DNA of 64,000 nt. It comes from Talaromyces rugulosus. Its lineage: Eukaryota; Ascomycota; Eurotiomycetes; Eurotiales; Trichocomaceae. Below, in pieces: positions 35,352 through 45,400 of the stretch. The stretch spans positions 1,550,001-1,614,000 of the forward strand of contig NC_049565.1 of the NCBI RefSeq assembly GCF_013368755.1. Direction: 5' to 3'. Under the pieces are notes generated by a model. That model saw nothing but the letters and a program-made list of their open reading frames with translations. It was not told where the DNA came from and made no database searches. The position numbers were made by a program, and so were the translations under genes. The number at the start of each line of letters is the position of its first letter. The first letter of the stretch is position 1.

Positions 35352-37659
35352 CTACTTGAAACGGGCGGTGCAGCGGCCCATCACGTCGCCTTGGCATACT
35401 AATTCAGCGTTGAATTCGGATCCATCGAGGGTGAGGTAGATGTCAAAGTAAACACGGTAGAAGGTTCCGTTGGGTGTATCCATGCGTTCAAAGTCTTTCT
35501 CTAGGTTTTTACGTGACAAGTCGGATGTGAGAGTGACAACTTCCTTGATTCCTGTTTCTCAAATTAGTGTGGGCAAAGCGGCTGGTAGATAAAATAACTT
35601 ACGAGGGTCTTTGACATATTCGGGGCAGACATCCTCGTCACATGCATACAAGATATCCTCGTACATTAGAGTCGCTCCTGGCGCGACTTGACGGAAGAAG
35701 CTGACCTTGACGGGCTCGCCAATCTTGACTCGTTCACCCTTTTGCACAAAGATCTGCCGGGTGTACTTGCATCGGTCTTTGCCGTCCAAGCTGGGGACGC
35801 GGTATTGTTCTGGGTGGTAACCCTCCTTGAATGGTTGCAGGGTAGCCATGAGGTAGTGTCGACGGGCAATTCGGTGTGTGACCACTCGTTCGGTAATACC
35901 AGCTGTGACTGCACCTTTCACGATTGCGGCGACAGAGTCCATTGGGCGCACCACTTTGGACTGGAATTGCGGGGGAACATGTAATTTGATTTGCTGAAAG
36001 AGATATTCGGATGCACCAAATCCACCGACGACGAGTACGTTCTGAGAACTCGGTTAGTTTGAATGGGGGAAAAAAGCGACGGAAAATGATAATACGCACC
36101 TGTAGTTGCCTGTTCTGGGCCTGGATGGCAATGATCTGGTTACGCACCAGCTCCAAGATTCGGTTGACGACAGGCTCGAAGCACTGCAGAATCTCCTCGT
36201 TGGTGAAGCTCATATAGCCGTCCTCAATGCCGGCGTCTGGATAGTCGGCCTCAATACCAACATCGACGGCCCACTTCTGGCCGTTGTTGCGGAAATCGGC
36301 CTTGATTCGGTTCTCAAAGTCCATGATGCACTTGGCGTATACTCTTCCTGCCGTTCGGGATCCGTCGGGCAGTTTCATCTTTCGAATTTTGGCACGCAAG
36401 ATATTGCTAAAGTTACGGTTGAGGGCGGTTGAACCGCACGAGTCTCCGGAACCAGCCGTGCACTCGGCGACTGTAAAGGGATTCTCCTCTTCGACCTCGT
36501 AGGCGATCAAGTCGACGGTACCACCACCACAGTCGACAATGAGAATGGCATCGCCTACCTTGAGATTCAACAGACCGGATTTGGCGCAAAACATGGCGGC
36601 AGCCTCGGGCTCAGTGATCAAGGTAAGACGGTTGTCGTTCTCGTCGCGCAAATAACCAGCTTGAATGGCGGCCGCACGAGTTGCTGCCTTGGCAGCATCG
36701 TTCCAAATAGCGGGCACGGTCAAATAGTAGCGAATGTTGCGCTCCTCACGATTGAACACTTCACCCAGGGTCTTTTGGAGCTGGGCGCGCATAGCTTGGC
36801 GCACCTTGAAGAGATAATCGGCGGCAACGTCGATCTCAGATTTGCCGGGAGGCAGAGGAGGCAGGTTAATGGGATCGATATAGGTGTTACCAGACAGCAT
36901 CAGCTGTAGCTTGAACCACTCGACTTTTTGAACGCCCAACTTGGGGTAACCGGTGTGGGCGAGGGCATCGGCGATATCAGGCCCCCATCCGACAACCTTC
37001 TGGTATTGATCGTAGTAGAGCACAGTAGGAATCTTCTGCTTTGTATGCGTACCGGCACCAGGCCATTCAGTGATAATGTCTTCGCGGGCCTCGTTGTTGG
37101 TAGCAAAGGCAAACGCGACACCGGAGAAGGTGGTGCCAAAGTCAATACCCACGATCAGCTGGGCCTTGTTTCGGTTGGTGCCGTCGACCTCGGCGGCCGG
37201 GTTGCGCACGCCCTGGGCCGGGCCCAGGCTGGAGGGGATCCCATGCTGATGGAGCGGCTGCGTAGACTGTACTGGGGGTTGCTGAGGCTGATAGCCATAG
37301 CCGGGAGGCGGCGGGCCTCCGACACCGAGCTGCTGCTGCTGGGGGGGCTGGCCGTACGGAGCGCTGGTGTTGATGGGGGGCGGGTGGTGGGCGACTTGCT
37401 GGGCAGTCGGCGGCATGGGACTCGTCGGACGACCAGCGTGCGAATAGCTGGGCGGTCGTCCTGGTGGATTTTGGCCGTTCATGGGAAGACTGGTGGTGGA
37501 CGAGCTCGAGGGCGGCGGTGGACTGGCGGACGCGGTGCTCAACGGCGGGGGGACGTAGGGGGTCCCTGAGGGGCTCGACTGTTGTGAGGGGATGGAAGTG
37601 CTGCTGTCCTTGCTGCGCTTGAACAACTTGAGCCGCGAAGTCATTGAGGATGAAGACAT
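35352..37659 (-). CDS. Hsp70-superfamily ATPase, HSPA12-like, with proline-rich N-terminus
   Basis: Three exons (37659-36100, 36041-35603, 35551-35352) encode 732 aa. Residues 1 to about 165 are a disordered Pro/Ser/Gln-rich segment (PPQQQQ, GYGYQPQQPP). The actin/Hsp70 ATPase fold follows: phosphate-1 loop IVGIDFGTTFSGVAF (about 169-183), phosphate-2 ILIVDCGGGTVDLIAYE, and the adenosine motif NVLVVGGFGASEYL at the start of exon 2. The C-terminal part lacks a canonical Hsp70 peptide-binding domain, as in HSPA12-type proteins. It is probably cytosolic. Its client or role is unknown, and no ER signal or EEVD-type tail is present. The start is the first ATG after the upstream stop-free stretch, which offers only a TTG. 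Family confident. Confidence 0.93.
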
Positions 37660-39362
37660 AGGGCAAGACAAAGACGAGAGGAAGAGAAGAAGAAGGTGGT
37701 GGTGGAGGTGGAGGAGAAGCGAAGAGGGAAGTAACGACGGCTTCCGCGGGGGGCACGAGAGACTAGGCTTGTTCCTTCCTGCTGTGGGAGCGAGCGACAA
37801 GACAAGGCAGACTCAGCACTGACAACGCCAAAACACAACAGGGCAGCTTTGAAGGGACGACGACTCGATTAGAGGAACAGGAATTCACGCGAGTCTGCCG
37901 GTGTCAGAATCTTTTTTTTTTGTGCAGGCTGGCCTGGGCTGGTGGGTGGATAAGCACAAGGCTCGGGGCTGAGTGCCAAGGTCGTATCGACACGGTAGTT
38001 TTGGGGAGACGACTCGATCAGCAGTGAGCTTGCGGCGGGGCCATGGACCAGACCTGTTTCCAGCAAGACGCAGAAAGAGCAGGAGAACAAACGAGGTGGA
38101 AAATTATCAATGCTGACAGTTGCGCCAAGAATCGCGTTGTTTGATGCGAAGAGGGAGAAGAGGAAGCGAAGTTGAGGGAGGCTGGTGGTGCATGTGGGTG
38201 GAGGTAGGCAGCATCGCTCGCTAGATTACCAAGAATTAATCATTCGTTAGGGGTCGCACGACAGCCGGGAGAAGTCTCGAGTGTTTATAACGTTGATCCG
38301 GGTCTGGCTGCGTGAGGCTGAGCGACGGCCCAAAGAGCGAGAGCCACTGACGCCAGAACTGGCCATTATTACTGACTACCATTGGTCTATTACATCGCCG
38401 CACTCCTCTACGATATAGTACGCAATCATAATTAACACCATCCAATTGCTATATGCAATACCGTTCCCTGCAGAGAGCATCAATTGATCTGTCAGCCTTG
38501 CGGCCTGACGGAGACCGCTCCGAGGCCGGACGTCGGACGAACCCAGCAGGCATCGCGCAAAATGTAAATATAGCAATCGTCCAGCGGTGTTTGAGACGAG
38601 CTACTATCTGAGGCATGAGAGCTGTCTGTCTCAACTAGGAGAGCTAATAATAATCACCCATTTGCAACAATAGAAACAAGTTCTATTTATAGGAGCGGGC
38701 AAGGGAAAGGTCCCCCGCAGCCCCGCTATTATCGGCCGGACAGCGCGCTCATTGGCCGACTGACTGACTCTATTATTATTCTCTCGCATCTAATCCTCGT
38801 CGACCACGCTTCTCGCTCGGAGATTTGATTCACTAGACCACGCGAAATACGTTGCTAATAGCTACTACTAGTTCCAACGTACCAGGCGAACCGTGCTGTA
38901 CCCCACAATGCCTGTTCCTCTCGGTGGCTGGTGGCTGGAGGATCCATCTGTACGCCCTGAAAGTCTGAAACGCCCGTTTTCTCCAGGCCGAACCGCCCGT
39001 CTGGGCCAGGGTCTGTGGCTGCAGGATTATTATTATTATGTCAAATATGCTAAAAATTCCTTGCTTGGCAGGCTATATCTGTGCTGCCTGCGCGTGTTTG
39101 GAACTTCAGGCTAACGGTTCCGCATAGCGATTTCAAATGCGCTGCCCTTTTGAAAAAGAAAAGTGTATTCAAGAGATCCATATATAAGGCCGCCAGCATT
39201 GATGGGGGTTTCATTTCAAATAGCTCTCTAGTAGTAATTGATATTTTGCTAATGCAATGCAGACCATATGCACTTCACTCATCCTGGCCTACCTCACTTC
39301 TCTTAGTTAATTCCAAGTAAACACCTATGCGCAACAAATCTCAGTAGGGAACTCTCGCAGAA
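37660..39362. other. Intergenic region, promoter of Hsp70-like gene
   Basis: No gene supported. A plus-strand 73-codon frame at 38893 is low-complexity (YYYY) and unlike any known family. Several CCAAT/ATTGG boxes occur near 38750. Confidence 0.6.
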
Positions 39363-41206
39363 CTATAATAGTTCGAAAGACGCTTGCTTACCTGCTACTT
39401 TCCACCTACCGTCCAAGAACCGCAACATGTCTTCGCTCACCATCTTCGCAGATGCGAGTTGCTGATTATTCGTCTCTTGTGAAATCCATAAAATACTTTG
39501 AGCACAGGTATAAACACATTCCAGCATCAAGGGTGAGGCTGTTTTTAGTGTCTCTGGAGTAAGTAGTCCCCGGACCTCTTGGATTAGAGTCGTGACTTGG
39601 CCGCAGATATCGTTCATTATATGAAGAGACCTCTCTAAGCATTGACGGACACGAGGCGCGGTCTGAGCATCGTATTGTGTTTCCTCATAGAACAATTCGC
39701 ACGAATAGCTATCAGAGAGCTTGAAAAGTGCACTAGAACTTGTCAACATTAAGTAATGTTATCAATCAACGAGACGCTCACCTATAGCATATTGTCCTTG
39801 CAATAACTGCGTCTAGCCCTGTCAACGGACCCTGGTTCTGTAGGAGTTCCAAAAGCGAATAGTTTGCCTGACAGAGCGTCTCGAAGCCATCCAGCATGAA
39901 GTTTATTTCCAGTGATGAATCACCACAGTGTCTTATCACACGGCCAAGTAGATTGGATGCCTGAGCTAGCCGTGCAAATGAGGAGATTTCTTTGGTTATG
40001 GTTTTTGATGACAACGACACGCGCTCGGGGGGTACCATTTCCTGACGGTCATTTGTTAACTATATTTAAAAATGATATACGCATGTTGTTCCCAGACTTA
40101 CACCACTATTCCAAGCGTCATCATCCACCGGCAGAAACGTGTCCCTGCCAGGGTCGTCGGTGCATAATGGGCGATAACCACCCCCAATAGCCACGTATCT
40201 GAGGAAAAAAGTAGTGTTAGCAAACACTTGCAAAATGAAAGGAGAACAACCAGTGCTTCCTCACCTGTCAAGAATCATGATTGTCCACCACACCCGCTGT
40301 CTCTCCTCCCAATCACCCCAGAATCGTGGTTTACCATATAGCTGAGGGGCAAATTTATTGTGTAGCCCAAGGGCAACCCCTTGCCTTGCACAGTAGCTAA
40401 TTGTCATAAATGCAGCTGGAAAAATACCATGCCCAATTTCGTAGAGCAAAAGAAGAACACCAGCCTGAACTGTACTTAAAGTAAGGAGGCCTTCCAACTC
40501 AAGTCTCTTGCTAAATTCTTTTGCAAGGTTATAGAGATCCAAGGAATGCGGACCATATCTGTCCGGAACCTCTTGAATCAATCTCATGCACAGCAAAAGT
40601 AGGGCGATGTCTGTTTTTGGGCAACTCTGTGGCACCTGAGTAAGCCGGCTCACTCTAATTTTACTAACAAACGGCAGCCAGACATGTATACTCTGGAAAT
40701 AGCCCGTCTTGATACTATCGATATCGGCCTGGTCGCCAAGAGCTGCACAGATATCGTCCGGGGCAAGAATCTGTGCAGGTCTGTCGGGGAATTTCAGGGA
40801 GGACCAAACCTCTGAATCAAGATAAAAAGCCTGTATCGACAAGTTTGAATCGACCGGCCCGCTTGTAGAAGACACGGATGGCATCTGAACCGGAAATTGC
40901 CGGACATGTTCTTCGAGTTCCTGGACGCGGCGCTGTAGGGCACTGATCTCGCTCTCGGGGGTCACCTGTGGAGGGCTTGAGTAGTCGCATACTCGGCCGG
41001 TCCTGGTTGTGTATGTATGTGTTAGCTAGTTACGTGTATCATCTGAATTATGTACAATTTGCAGTGCGACGGGAATGGCTGATAACGAGGCAGAGAATGA
41101 CCAACTTCAGACACGAGCCGCAGCTCGGAACACGCTTATCGCAGCGTCTTTTGTTTTTCTTGCATGGAGCGCAAGCATATAAAACCGGATCAGCATCGGA
41201 CTCCAT
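39363..41206 (-). CDS. Zn2Cys6 transcription factor divergent from an SDR gene
   Basis: Five exons (41206-41106, 41002-40265, 40198-40102, 40041-39782, 39732-39363) encode 521 aa. The cluster has Cys at 12, 15, 22, 29, 32 and 39 (ACAPCKKNKRRCDKRVPSC, then GSCLK joined by splicing to TGRVCDY). The rebuilt CX2CX6CX6CX2CX6C spacing confirms intron 1 despite a weak GTTGGT donor. A short coiled coil (SEISALQRRVQELEEHVRQF) follows. The fungal TF homology domain then contains GDWEERQRVWWTIMILDRYVAIG, whose last part spans intron 2. It is likely a pathway-specific nuclear regulator. The promoter shared with the SDR at 41641 holds four GCGGCCGC palindromes, so autoregulation together with control of the SDR is plausible. 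Confidence 0.92.
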
Positions 41207-41640
41207 CGTGGGCGATTCTGGTTGACAAAATTGGTTTTCCTGGGAAGGGTCTGAGTGAGCGGCCGCAGAGCGGAGGCTGAGGAAAACCAAGTGCGGCCGC
41301 AAATCATAAATGCTGTATATATACCGGAGTTAAGCCGCCGGAAAATCCGACGACAAATGTGACTTCTTTAGAACGTAAAAGTCCGGGGCTTGTTTCTGAT
41401 TCGCCACACTTACTTTTAATGTTAAAGCAGTCAGTTACTAATTGTTGTCATTGAGTGAGAAGCGGAGGAGAGCGGCCGCTTCTTTGGCAGATGAGTAGTA
41501 GGTGCGGCCGCAGTCATGGTGGGTATAAACTATAAAGTCTCCTCTACTTTCGACTCAGATTGAATTTGTACAGCTCAAATCTTCCAAGAAAAAAAAAAAA
41601 CATCCTCAAAAGTTTAATACTCTCACATTGATAAATCGCC
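41207..41640. promoter_or_regulatory. Divergent TF/SDR promoter with four GCGGCCGC palindromes
   Basis: Perfect 8-bp palindromes lie at 41259-41266, 41293-41300, 41472-41479 and 41504-41511, arranged as two pairs (starts 34 and 32 bp apart). One pair is 53-94 bp from the regulator ATG and the other 130-169 bp from the SDR ATG. TATAAAC/TATAAAG boxes at 41524-41537 serve the SDR side. CGGCCG is a fused everted CGG site of the kind zinc-cluster dimers bind. Confidence 0.75.
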
Positions 41641-42465
41641 ATGTCGAAAGTGTGGTTTGTCACTGGCTCTTCCCGCGGTCTCGGTCTCTCCATCGTCAAA
41701 GCCGCCCTTGACTCCGGTGCCTCTGTTATTGCTACTGCCAGAAAGCCAGAACAACTTAACGGCCTCGTCGAAAAGTATGGCCATGACAGGATTCTTCCAA
41801 TCGCACTAGATGTCTCCAATAACGATCAGGTCATCCAAGCCGTCCAGGCCGGACATGCGAAATTCGGCCGAATCGACATCGTCGTTAACAACGCTGGCTA
41901 CGCAAACACTGCCTCAGTGGAAGACATCACCATTGAAGATTTCCGAGCCCAGATCGATACAAACCTGTTAGGAGTCGTTTACGTCTCCAAAGCTGTCCTG
42001 CCGATTCTTCGCCAGCAAAGATCCGGTCATATTTTCCAAGTTTCTTCTGTAGGTGGCAGGGTCGGTGTCCCTGGTCTCTCAGCTTACCAGAGCGCAAAGT
42101 GGGCGTTGGGCGGGTTTTCCACTGTACTCTCGCAGGAGGTAGCCCCGTTCGGTATCAAGGTTACTGTCCTTGAACCTGGTGGCATTCGAACGGACTGGGC
42201 TGGGTCGTCCATGGGCGTCCCGCCTGTGAGTGAGCCTTACCAGTCCACAGTGGGAGCCGTTGTCGAGAACCATCGGAAACGTTCTGGGTCTGAGCCCTCC
42301 CTTCCAGAGAAGATTGCAGATATAGTTATAAAACTCACAGACGAGGCCGAGCCGCCTTTGCGTTTGTTGATTGGGCCAGATGCAGTGGATTATGCTGGGA
42401 GAGCAGCCGAGGCTCTCGCTGCATCTGATACACAGTGGCGGGCACTGAGCGTTACTTCAACATAG
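41641..42465 (+). CDS. Short-chain dehydrogenase/reductase (SDR), single exon
   Basis: Intron-free 274-aa classical SDR. The cofactor loop VTGSSRGLGLSI (about residues 7-18), ATARKP after beta2 (Arg/Lys favouring NADP), LDVSNN, VNNAGYAN, catalytic Ser in QVSSVGGRVG, and YQSAK give the full active site. EPGGIRTDWAGSS continues the substrate loop. It resembles fungal oxidoreductases annotated as versicolorin/retinol-type SDRs, but the substrate cannot be told. The ATG at 41641 follows TATA boxes by about 110 bp. The gene is transcribed divergently from the Zn2Cys6 regulator, and the shared palindromes suggest it is a direct target. Confidence 0.94.
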   Translation: MSKVWFVTGSSRGLGLSIVKAALDSGASVIATARKPEQLNGLVEKYGHDRILPIALDVSNNDQVIQAVQAGHAKFGRIDIVVNNAGYANTASVEDITIEDFRAQIDTNLLGVVYVSKAVLPILRQQRSGHIFQVSSVGGRVGVPGLSAYQSAKWALGGFSTVLSQEVAPFGIKVTVLEPGGIRTDWAGSSMGVPPVSEPYQSTVGAVVENHRKRSGSEPSLPEKIADIVIKLTDEAEPPLRLLIGPDAVDYAGRAAEALAASDTQWRALSVTST

Positions 42466-45400
42466 AACTTGGGGGCAGATTGACGACCACACTCTTATCA
42501 ACTCTTATAAAATCCTTGGAGAAAAACATGTCGAAAAGCGTTCTTTCACAATAATAAGATTATTCATGTGTGACTTATGAAAATTAGAGACAACAAGCCA
42601 AGTTCTCTTTCTGAAACTAGTGTCTATTACGTACTATATTTAATGTTGCGTGCATAGATAGCCATTACCATTATCTAATAGAATATTCCGCATGCTAACT
42701 TGGTAGTAACATCCCCATTAAATATCTCAGCCAAAGGGAAACCACATATGGCTGCCCATAGGGTTCAACCCGTCACATGACCAATTGGAAAAAATCCCCC
42801 GTCCAAACTGTACTCCAACCTCCTGGAAGCACCTGACGTCTTCCAAGTATATTTACGTGATCGTTATTAAGCTGTACCACTATCATTTAGCATGTTACTC
42901 CAACTGCCGTTGGTATGATCCGAGACCTGAGCACTCCTCAACTTGCCAATCGGTACCAACAAGCGAGTCATCAGAGACATAGTGGAACATCTTGGCGCAT
43001 ATTAATAAAGTTATAACGTTGGTGTGTGTGTGTGTGTGTGTGTTGAATGCCAGACGGTTTAGTCATAGTCATTGCCATCTCAGCAGACCCTCGGACAAAG
43101 GACAACGGCTCGGTATCACAAATACCCCTAATGTGCTGATCAACGAAGCTGGCCTTATCTGTATCCTGTTAGTATCTTGTCTTTTGAACGCAACACTTTG
43201 GGAATAATTCGACATATTCGGGATTCAGGCGTGCTTCGGGATCCGAGAATCAGCCGTATGTGTCCACTCTCACACATACCGCCATTATTCTTACACAGAC
43301 GGCGATTCGGCCTTCGGATGTAAACCTTATCTTTCTCTAATGCAAGCCGTTTTCATATTCTTCATAGATATCCACCGTGGGAAACGCGGCTACTCGAAAT
43401 TATCGAGGCTTTGATATGGTGTTAGCACAGAACAATACCCTCTTTTATCAAACGAAAAGGCGGCTTTTGTGTGGCAAGAGAGGACTTCAAAGCGAATAGA
43501 AAACAAGCCATAGACTTGCAACCCATAATATTATCGTGACCCACAGGGCGATGACTCTGATAAATTGATTAGGACGCCAGTTTTGTCTTGATTCGGCCTA
43601 ATCAGTTCCGGCCGTCGCTCCTCTTTTCGTCTTTTTGTGCAGCAAACAGCTCAATACTACTTCAGAAAAAAAAAATCAAACCGTGACACCTTTGAAAAAG
43701 GAGGGAAAATGCAGTTGTTTCTATGAGGCATTTTTAAAATGACAGTCGCCAAAGAGTTAGTAATGAATTTAGAACGATTGGCGGGGATCTAGATCAGTCG
43801 ATAGTCGCTCATTGATTGGATCAACAAGCTCGAGTCGAGGGCGGATCCCCCCATAAGGCCGGACTTACAGGTCAACAAATAGCAGGATTGTCCATCAGTT
43901 GTTTGTATAGTGGAGAGCGGGGGGCATTGGCTGCGGAGAAAAACAAGCCCGCGTGTTACGTTGTCAAATATTAATGCTAAACCCATAGCTATAGTTCTGC
44001 GCTTTGCATAAATATGTCATTCGCTTTTTTTACCCTCTCTAGACCTTGAAGTGGCGGTGATGGCCCGTGCGTCTAGAGAGGCTTGAATACGATGGTAGTT
44101 GTGAGTACATAAGCAGAGGGAGCACGAGACCGTCTAGTATGGTTGGTTTCGAAATCTTGGAATAGGATCGCAAGCCGTTTCCACAGAGGGCCCTATGTGG
44201 TCCTAGTAGAGTTGGACCACGTAAAAGACGTAGAAATTGGCGTCTGCCTAGCAGCAGAAAGGCTGACCTGACCATCATGCAAAGATCTCAAATACTACGT
44301 ACGTAGATGCAATCGCTTCATCACAAAGCCAAGAAAATTGGCAATACAAACTCGGCTCCCGGAACGCATGATGACAGCTGAAATACAACCGAGCGCCCTC
44401 TCCTGACATAAGACAAGATGCACGAATAGGGTTGATAGCAATTCTCGCTCAGACAGAGGGGTCCAAGTTGTGGCTTCTGCGAATGACGAGTCGACGACAT
44501 TTGTCGGCTGAATCGACGTCTTGTGGCTATGCTGAATCTTTCCTGCGTACGATCATGACTCAATATTGGTCAGTGCCTTAACGTGACCCTGTGCTCCCGA
44601 AACGACAAGTCGCAGACAGGCTGCCCCTTTGCCAATAAAAAAAGAAAACATGATCGACGTCATCTCTCTCATAGTTTGAACTTTTCGATTGGCTGGCGGA
44701 TAAAACATTATTGTTAGAGTGCCGGAGATCTTTTACGAGGCTCCTGATTGCTAAATTTTCCCGGTTTGTGATGATGTATGGTCAATGCGAATTCCAGGCG
44801 GCAAGCGCGCTTTGCGCGGGAAACCACAAAATACCCCGTGCTAGACAAGTATGGGAGGTTTGTCCAAACGTCGGCTCGGGGCGGCAGACCCTGATCCGGA
44901 TGGAGCTGAAAAAGAAGCCTGGTACGTACGGGGAATAAAGAAAACACGCTGGACAAGTTATGCCGGACTTGTGACTGGTCGACGTTTGTTGAGGGGGTCA
45001 GTAGGCTGCAATCTAGCGAGGCCTAAGTGTGGGGAGTTACATAGACCCGCTCTGCTGGGATGGGTAAAAGGCGGAGATGGTGCTAAAATCATAGTGACCA
45101 TCCAGGCGATCCGCAGCCGGAAATACGGAGGAGGCCGACAAAGCATTGAAAGAAATTGTAGCGTAGCCAGTCGGTACCTGCAACCTGCATCGATGCACCG
45201 AGTCTCGTGCTTCCTGTCGCGGCAATTGCTGACTGGAAGGCTGATGTTTGTGGCACAACCGTTTTGCCTATATGCTGGGCTGGTGGATCGACACACAAAA
45301 AGGCTGGCCAGTGCCCAGTGAGCCGCTGCAGATGCGATGCACGGACATCATCACGCGCAAGCACAGAAAAAAAATAAGTCCCCGGTTCGTCCATACTAGC

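Follow-up and report, generated by a model that had tools for sequence, protein, structure and literature searches.

Palindromic candidate operator sites in the promoter shared by divergent Zn2Cys6 regulator and short-chain dehydrogenase genes of Talaromyces rugulosus

Four copies of the 8-bp palindrome GCGGCCGC were found in the intergenic region shared by a Zn2Cys6 regulator gene and a divergently transcribed short-chain dehydrogenase/reductase (SDR) gene of Talaromyces rugulosus. The window, that is, the whole stretch of DNA analysed, comprised 64,000 nucleotides. We consider it fairly likely that these palindromes are operators, here predicted, of a single subfamily of zinc-cluster regulators, with the adjacent regulator as the most probable binder. 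The four 8-mers are regarded as candidate docking sites, probably for the adjacent regulator or one closely related to it, since comparable sites recur before related regulator genes and before enzyme genes in the same genome. The core of the original prediction, an autoregulated switch in which the regulator controls both itself and the oxidoreductase, is partly supported by these recurrences, short of proof.

Domain searches agreed with the gene identities proposed earlier, one gene encoding a protein with Zn_clus and Fungal_trans domains and the other a short-chain dehydrogenase (Table 1). In the regulator, a six-cysteine zinc cluster of the Zn2Cys6 (Gal4) type, its basic stretch lying between Cys2 and Cys3 (PF00172, E = 1.1e-6), and a middle homology region (PF04082, E = 5.7e-12) were identified. 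The hand-spliced product of 521 aa matched TRUGW13939_09097 at 100% over 98% of the query; an additional intron near the C-terminus, implied by the database protein and by the orthologs, is not part of our own model. In the protein-to-genome search, the last match of the regulator was located at C5:1589278. The six cysteines and K19 were invariant across 11 aligned regulator homologs, and six residues separate C22 and C29, the third and fourth cysteines. The zinc cluster aligned with those of Lac9 and Gal4, with K19 in line with a DNA-contact lysine of Gal4, and a stretch after the linker, heptad-like as judged by reading only and a putative coiled coil for dimerization, was aligned with that of Gal4. 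The T. islandicus ortholog (P0002) is labelled "Valine--tRNA ligase" in public databases despite its Zn_clus and Fungal_trans domains, which is a misannotation.

Table 1. Features of the divergent gene pair and its intergenic region (window positions; distances are from the 8-mer to each start codon).
Feature	Position	Strand	Remarks
Zn2Cys6 regulator gene, T. rugulosus TRUGW13939_09097 (533 aa in database)	39278..41206	-	Zn_clus and Fungal_trans; 100% match to P0001
Regulator introns, own placement	41105-41003, 40264-40199, 40101-40042, 39781-39733	-	Hand splicing
Palindrome 1, AGCGGCCGCA	41258..41267		8-mer at 41259; regulator ATG 53 bp, SDR ATG 382 bp
Single half-site AGCGG (GCGGAGG)	41270..41273	+	Inside first pair
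Palindrome 2, TGCGGCCGCA	41292..41301		8-mer at 41293; regulator ATG 87 bp, SDR ATG 348 bp
TATA-like stretch, readable on both strands	41316..41321		Inner side of first pair; putative role
Single half-site AGCGG (GCGGAGG)	41462..41465	+	Adjoins second pair
Palindrome 3, AGCGGCCGCT	41471..41480		8-mer at 41472; regulator ATG 266 bp, SDR ATG 169 bp
Palindrome 4, TGCGGCCGCA	41503..41512		8-mer at 41504; regulator ATG 298 bp, SDR ATG 137 bp
TATA-like stretches at 41524 and 41531	41524..41536	+	Directly 3' of second pair, towards SDR; putative role
SDR gene, 274 aa	41641..42465	+	adh_short, E = 6.7e-50; homologs

The shared intergenic region extends from the regulator ATG, which ends at 41206 on the minus strand, to the SDR ATG, which begins at 41641. 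A word scan placed the four copies of GCGGCCGC exactly where they had been reported, and it also bore out the spacings within the pairs (34 and 32 bp) and the stated limits of the intergenic region. All four palindromes match WGCGGCCGCW, and two of the four are TGCGGCCGCA. The earlier description of the sites as back-to-back CGG half-sites holds in that CGGCCG is contained in all four 8-mers; TGCGG (or WGCGG) describes the half-site better than CGG does. Each of the ten GCGG half-sites in the two groups follows an A or a T, and the sole further GCGG of the region, at 41335, is preceded by G.

The 8-mer occurs 632 times in the 35.76-Mb genome, or once per 56.6 kb, which is close to the chance rate of once in 65 kb assumed originally. 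A fifth copy in the window, absent from the original prediction, was found at 36668 inside a 688-aa open frame matching Hsp70 (35734-37800, minus strand). In dinucleotide shuffles of the window, the mean was 0.73 copies and the maximum 4, and none of 100 shuffles reached 5. Only three pairs of GCGGCCGC with 0-30 intervening bases were detected genome-wide, against 0.35 expected from a Poisson model, and two of the three lie in this promoter; at gaps of 31-61 there were none, and at gaps of 62-92 there were three, none in this promoter. For the control word, with the pattern reversed, the corresponding pair counts in these three gap classes were 3, 4, and 1. With words this rich in G+C, one isolated pair therefore means little, whereas two adjacent pairs do mean something. 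For four copies to fall within 253 bp, one gap or more must be no longer than 73; since the gap sums exclude the pairs at 62-92 unless another listed pair adjoins, and since the locus of the third close pair (L007) holds two copies in 3 kb, the four-copy cluster is unique in the genome, with about 8.5e-6 such clusters expected anywhere in it. The pair at L007, which spans a reading-frame start, was rejected by our own reading as an operator of the same kind.

A search of the genome with the regulator protein gave 54 matches including the exons of the window gene itself, which were merged into 40 other loci, and for 19 paralogs the upstream 600 bp were compared (C1:199048, L062, was left out as its start codon was not found). 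The link to the paralogs was noticed first and tested afterwards. GCGGCCGC was present upstream of three of the 19, namely C2:5725668 (-100), C2:164486 (-102 and -296), and C6:763191 (-80); the same counting puts it at -60 and -94 of the window regulator. All three belong to the nine best-scoring paralogs (3/9, binomial p = 9e-5 against the genome rate), a set that includes C2:2006454, which outranks C4:1254621. The 8-mer was missing from the 600 bp upstream of the other 16, both C4 paralogs included, which speaks against the operator reading. Among the control promoters of 20 other Zn2Cys6 genes, for which windows were cut from the zinc-cluster match and not from the start codon, one carried GCGGCCGC, so that the matched comparison is borderline: the excess over other Zn2Cys6 promoters was borderline for 3/9 (Fisher p = 0.076) and absent for 3/19 (p = 0.28). 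The half-site TGCGG averaged 2.9 per 600 bp in the nine best paralogs and 1.2 in the 20 controls (p = 0.016), and the eleven more distant paralogs did not differ from the controls in TGCGG (p = 0.49), one of these distant paralogs, C5:108814, having six TGCGG upstream. CGGCCG alone, present in 5/20 controls, failed as a marker to separate paralogs from controls (p = 0.28). The promoter of C5:108814 (L057, C5 at about 110 kb) is dense in single GCGG half-sites, with 12 in 600 bp and no palindrome, and the control promoter L078 (C2:2760090-2761090) contains 12 WGCGG in 600 bp, above any paralog promoter tested, which also counts against the operator reading; the latter stretch may be partly coding.

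Among the 10-mers, TGCGGCCGCA and AGCGGCCGCT were counted 45 and 35 times in the genome, respectively, and 32 of the 45 TGCGGCCGCA sites were examined. A frame test was applied to 21 sites in larger pieces (15 in L008-L022, three on C4, one on C6, and two in the window), and at eight of them no open frame of 100 aa spans the site, namely at L008 and L016, at both window sites, at all three on C4, and at the one on C6. The site at L019 has a covering frame but lies, by our own reading, between two divergent start codons, and was therefore counted as a promoter site. By our own count, nine TGCGGCCGCA sites were judged non-coding, and seven of these nine are located at members of the regulator subfamily or its cluster, or five of seven when the two window sites are set aside. 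The original prediction had named a high frequency of the 8-mer in unrelated promoters as an argument against itself; this was checked on TGCGGCCGCA and not on all 632 8-mers, within the 32 of 45 sites covered, and gave the counts just stated. One further TGCGGCCGCA site, at L007, falls at a reading-frame start. In ten pieces of 401 bases, seven had covering frames longer than 100 aa, the other three (L086, L088, and L089) being assigned to neither class, and the word read as Ala-Ala-Ala in the longest frame of at least seven of the ten (own reading); an open frame over a site is compatible with coding and is no proof of it. An SDR-like neighbor at C1:2778293 (L014) was discarded as a recurrence, the site falling inside a 215-aa frame.

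TGCGGCCGCA was found within 3 kb of a paralog locus at 4 of the 43 sites outside the window, where 0.30 were expected. AGCGGCCGCT was not an equally good marker, with 1/34 sites within 3 kb of paralogs against 0.24 expected and no clear excess. A general association of TGCGGCCGCA with Zn2Cys6 genes was also rejected, at least 3/43 sites lying within 3 kb of such genes among the matches listed, with 1.07 expected.

Arrangements similar to that in the window were identified at other loci. The regulator at C2:164486 faces a second SDR gene (PF00106, E = 2.1e-28) across about 485 bp (L041:2377-2861, C2 at about 165 kb), and the sequence between them contains four CGGCCG at -295, -283, -271, and -101, three of them with an exact 12-bp period. 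At C2:5725668, the gene facing the regulator is tautomerase-like (PF14832), and the sequence between the two carries TGCGGCCGCA and additional copies of TGCGG. Further, a region of C4 (1251500-1265000; L048, L050) harbors two regulator paralogs together with genes for a zinc-type dehydrogenase, a weakly matched lactamase-fold protein, an MFS protein, and an SDR. There, one copy of TGCGGCCGCA was located about 145 bp before the dehydrogenase gene, a second lies between the lactamase-fold gene and the MFS gene, and a third precedes the SDR open frame by about 140 bp; these three sites fall within 10.9 kb, and about 0.004 such triples are expected by chance genome-wide. No palindrome was present upstream of either C4 regulator, and one of the two has four upstream half-sites in tandem, three of which are GGTGCGG. 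The C4 group looks like a catabolic or biosynthetic cluster.

The zinc cluster of Aspergillus nidulans AlcR contains a long loop between its third and fourth cysteines, whereas the regulator described here has six residues at that place and lacks such a loop. The likeness to AlcR lies on the DNA side only, two of the sites being TGCGG/CCGCA and the other two WGCGG/CCGCW. One paper gives TGCGG as the half-site of AlcR (PMC12941744), and another mentions AlcR, in the context of paralogous regulators, as possibly autoregulating (PMC8396895). Passages of two further papers report that the zinc-cluster protein Rds1 of Saccharomyces cerevisiae binds CGGCCG, that is, two abutting inverted CGG half-sites (PMC3534124, PMC4872168); CGGCCG lies within all four 8-mers of the present promoter, and the comparison is made by site alone and not by protein kinship. 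Unlike the Rds1 site, the site here extends to TGCGGCCGCA and sits in the promoter of the regulator itself. For the Fusarium Zn2Cys6 regulator PglR, an excerpt of PMC4872168 describes an inverted CGG repeat, CGG-N3-CCG, enriched in the promoters of its cluster; PglR differs in the three-base spacer, in its polyketide cluster, and, as far as that excerpt goes, in being backed by overexpression and cross-species conservation. In the open-licence literature, neither a paper on this regulator, nor a published site for it, nor TGCGGCCGCA as a fungal operator was found, nor was anything on AlcR with GCGG or CCGCA or on boa17. PMC3205040 was set aside as a source for CGGCCG, the word occurring only in primers in the part of that paper available.

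If the palindromes are operators of the subfamily, each site would be an inverted repeat of the abutting half-sites TGCGG and CCGCA (loosely WGCGG and CCGCW), each half-site taking one zinc cluster, and the regulator would bind as a dimer on this zero-spacer site, although two zinc clusters placed side by side in this way might be crowded. The pair at 41472/41504 is directly upstream of the TATA-like stretch at 41524, the usual position for an activator, and would serve activation of the SDR gene. The pair at 41259/41293 is close to the regulator start codon, a position shared with three paralogs and suggestive of self-control, and binding by the subfamily probably includes such self-control of the regulator. 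The regulator would act on both genes, and would do so as an activator, as a putative two-gene switch. A broader proposal is that the subfamily keeps one ancestral operator without a spacer, TGCGGCCGCA, both in its own promoters and in the promoters of neighboring oxidoreductase genes, the duplicated regulators being cross-wired as an autoregulatory network; this is offered tentatively and seems rather unlikely at present. Sequence alone nevertheless yields a testable 10-base candidate operator for the regulator and perhaps for its subfamily, with the adjacent SDR gene, the second divergent SDR gene, the tautomerase-like gene, and the C4 oxidoreductase and transporter cluster as predicted targets. 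The kind of regulation is already known, and the site of this example is unusually testable; it is also an example on which one may ask if regulators retain an ancestral operator after duplication.

The main rival is that a single shared regulator, be it one of the subfamily paralogs or a protein resembling AlcR, binds all of the sites and controls the local regulators from above, with no self-control by the neighboring gene. The occurrence of the same palindrome before several different regulators would fit this, as would the AlcR half-site, also TGCGG in the passage cited above (PMC12941744), and the zinc-cluster residues, which differ among the paralogs. Against it, in the part of the sites examined, these concentrate at subfamily members and their neighbors and not at unrelated promoters, and we rate control by one shared regulator as possible, if somewhat unlikely.

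The words might instead be non-regulatory, arising by chance, from local G+C-rich sequence, or from a duplicated stretch of promoter. The reversed control words form some pairs too, and with the 8-mers held in place, 44 of 1000 shuffles scored as high as a direct alignment of the two promoter halves, which hints at a tandem duplication; however, the halves were unlike once the 8-mers were masked (363/1000), and an inverted alignment gave 816/1000, so that tandem duplication as the origin of the two pairs is suggestive only. The region has a G+C content of 45%, and more than one copy of the 8-mer never appeared in 20000 shuffles of it. Further, no second copy of the 434-bp intergenic region was found when it was sought in the genome, which speaks against a repeated or mobile element as the source, and the site recurs at paralogs. 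An origin without regulatory function is thus held to be improbable. Less probable still is that the first pair is coding, in which case the regulator would start further upstream and the words would be alanine runs, as in many genomic copies. A 93-aa stop-to-stop frame does run through the first pair and continue into the regulator frame, and the word often reads Ala-Ala-Ala elsewhere, but this frame has no ATG before 41206, the homologs begin near the zinc cluster, and the second pair is in no frame longer than 38 aa.

The SDR belongs to a family often named BcBOA17/boa17, many such names occurring among the 120 homologs listed of 7999 kept. Linkage of the two genes in other fungi was compared in the 17 species common to the regulator and SDR matches listed. 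Among these matches, the best regulator and SDR hits were on equally long contigs in 12 of the 17 species, namely T. islandicus, A. varians, A. clavatus, A. alliaceus, A. multicolor, A. coremiiformis, A. ustus, A. wentii, A. karnatakaensis, A. crustosus, P. frequentans, and P. nucicola. The contigs were unequal in the other five (P. verhagenii, P. longicatenatum, P. antarcticum, P. odoratum, and Ilyonectria destructans). Equally long contigs suggest linkage of the regulator and SDR genes, and are no proof of adjacency. In the window itself, a short GT dinucleotide repeat was observed at 43020-43044, 3' of the SDR gene.
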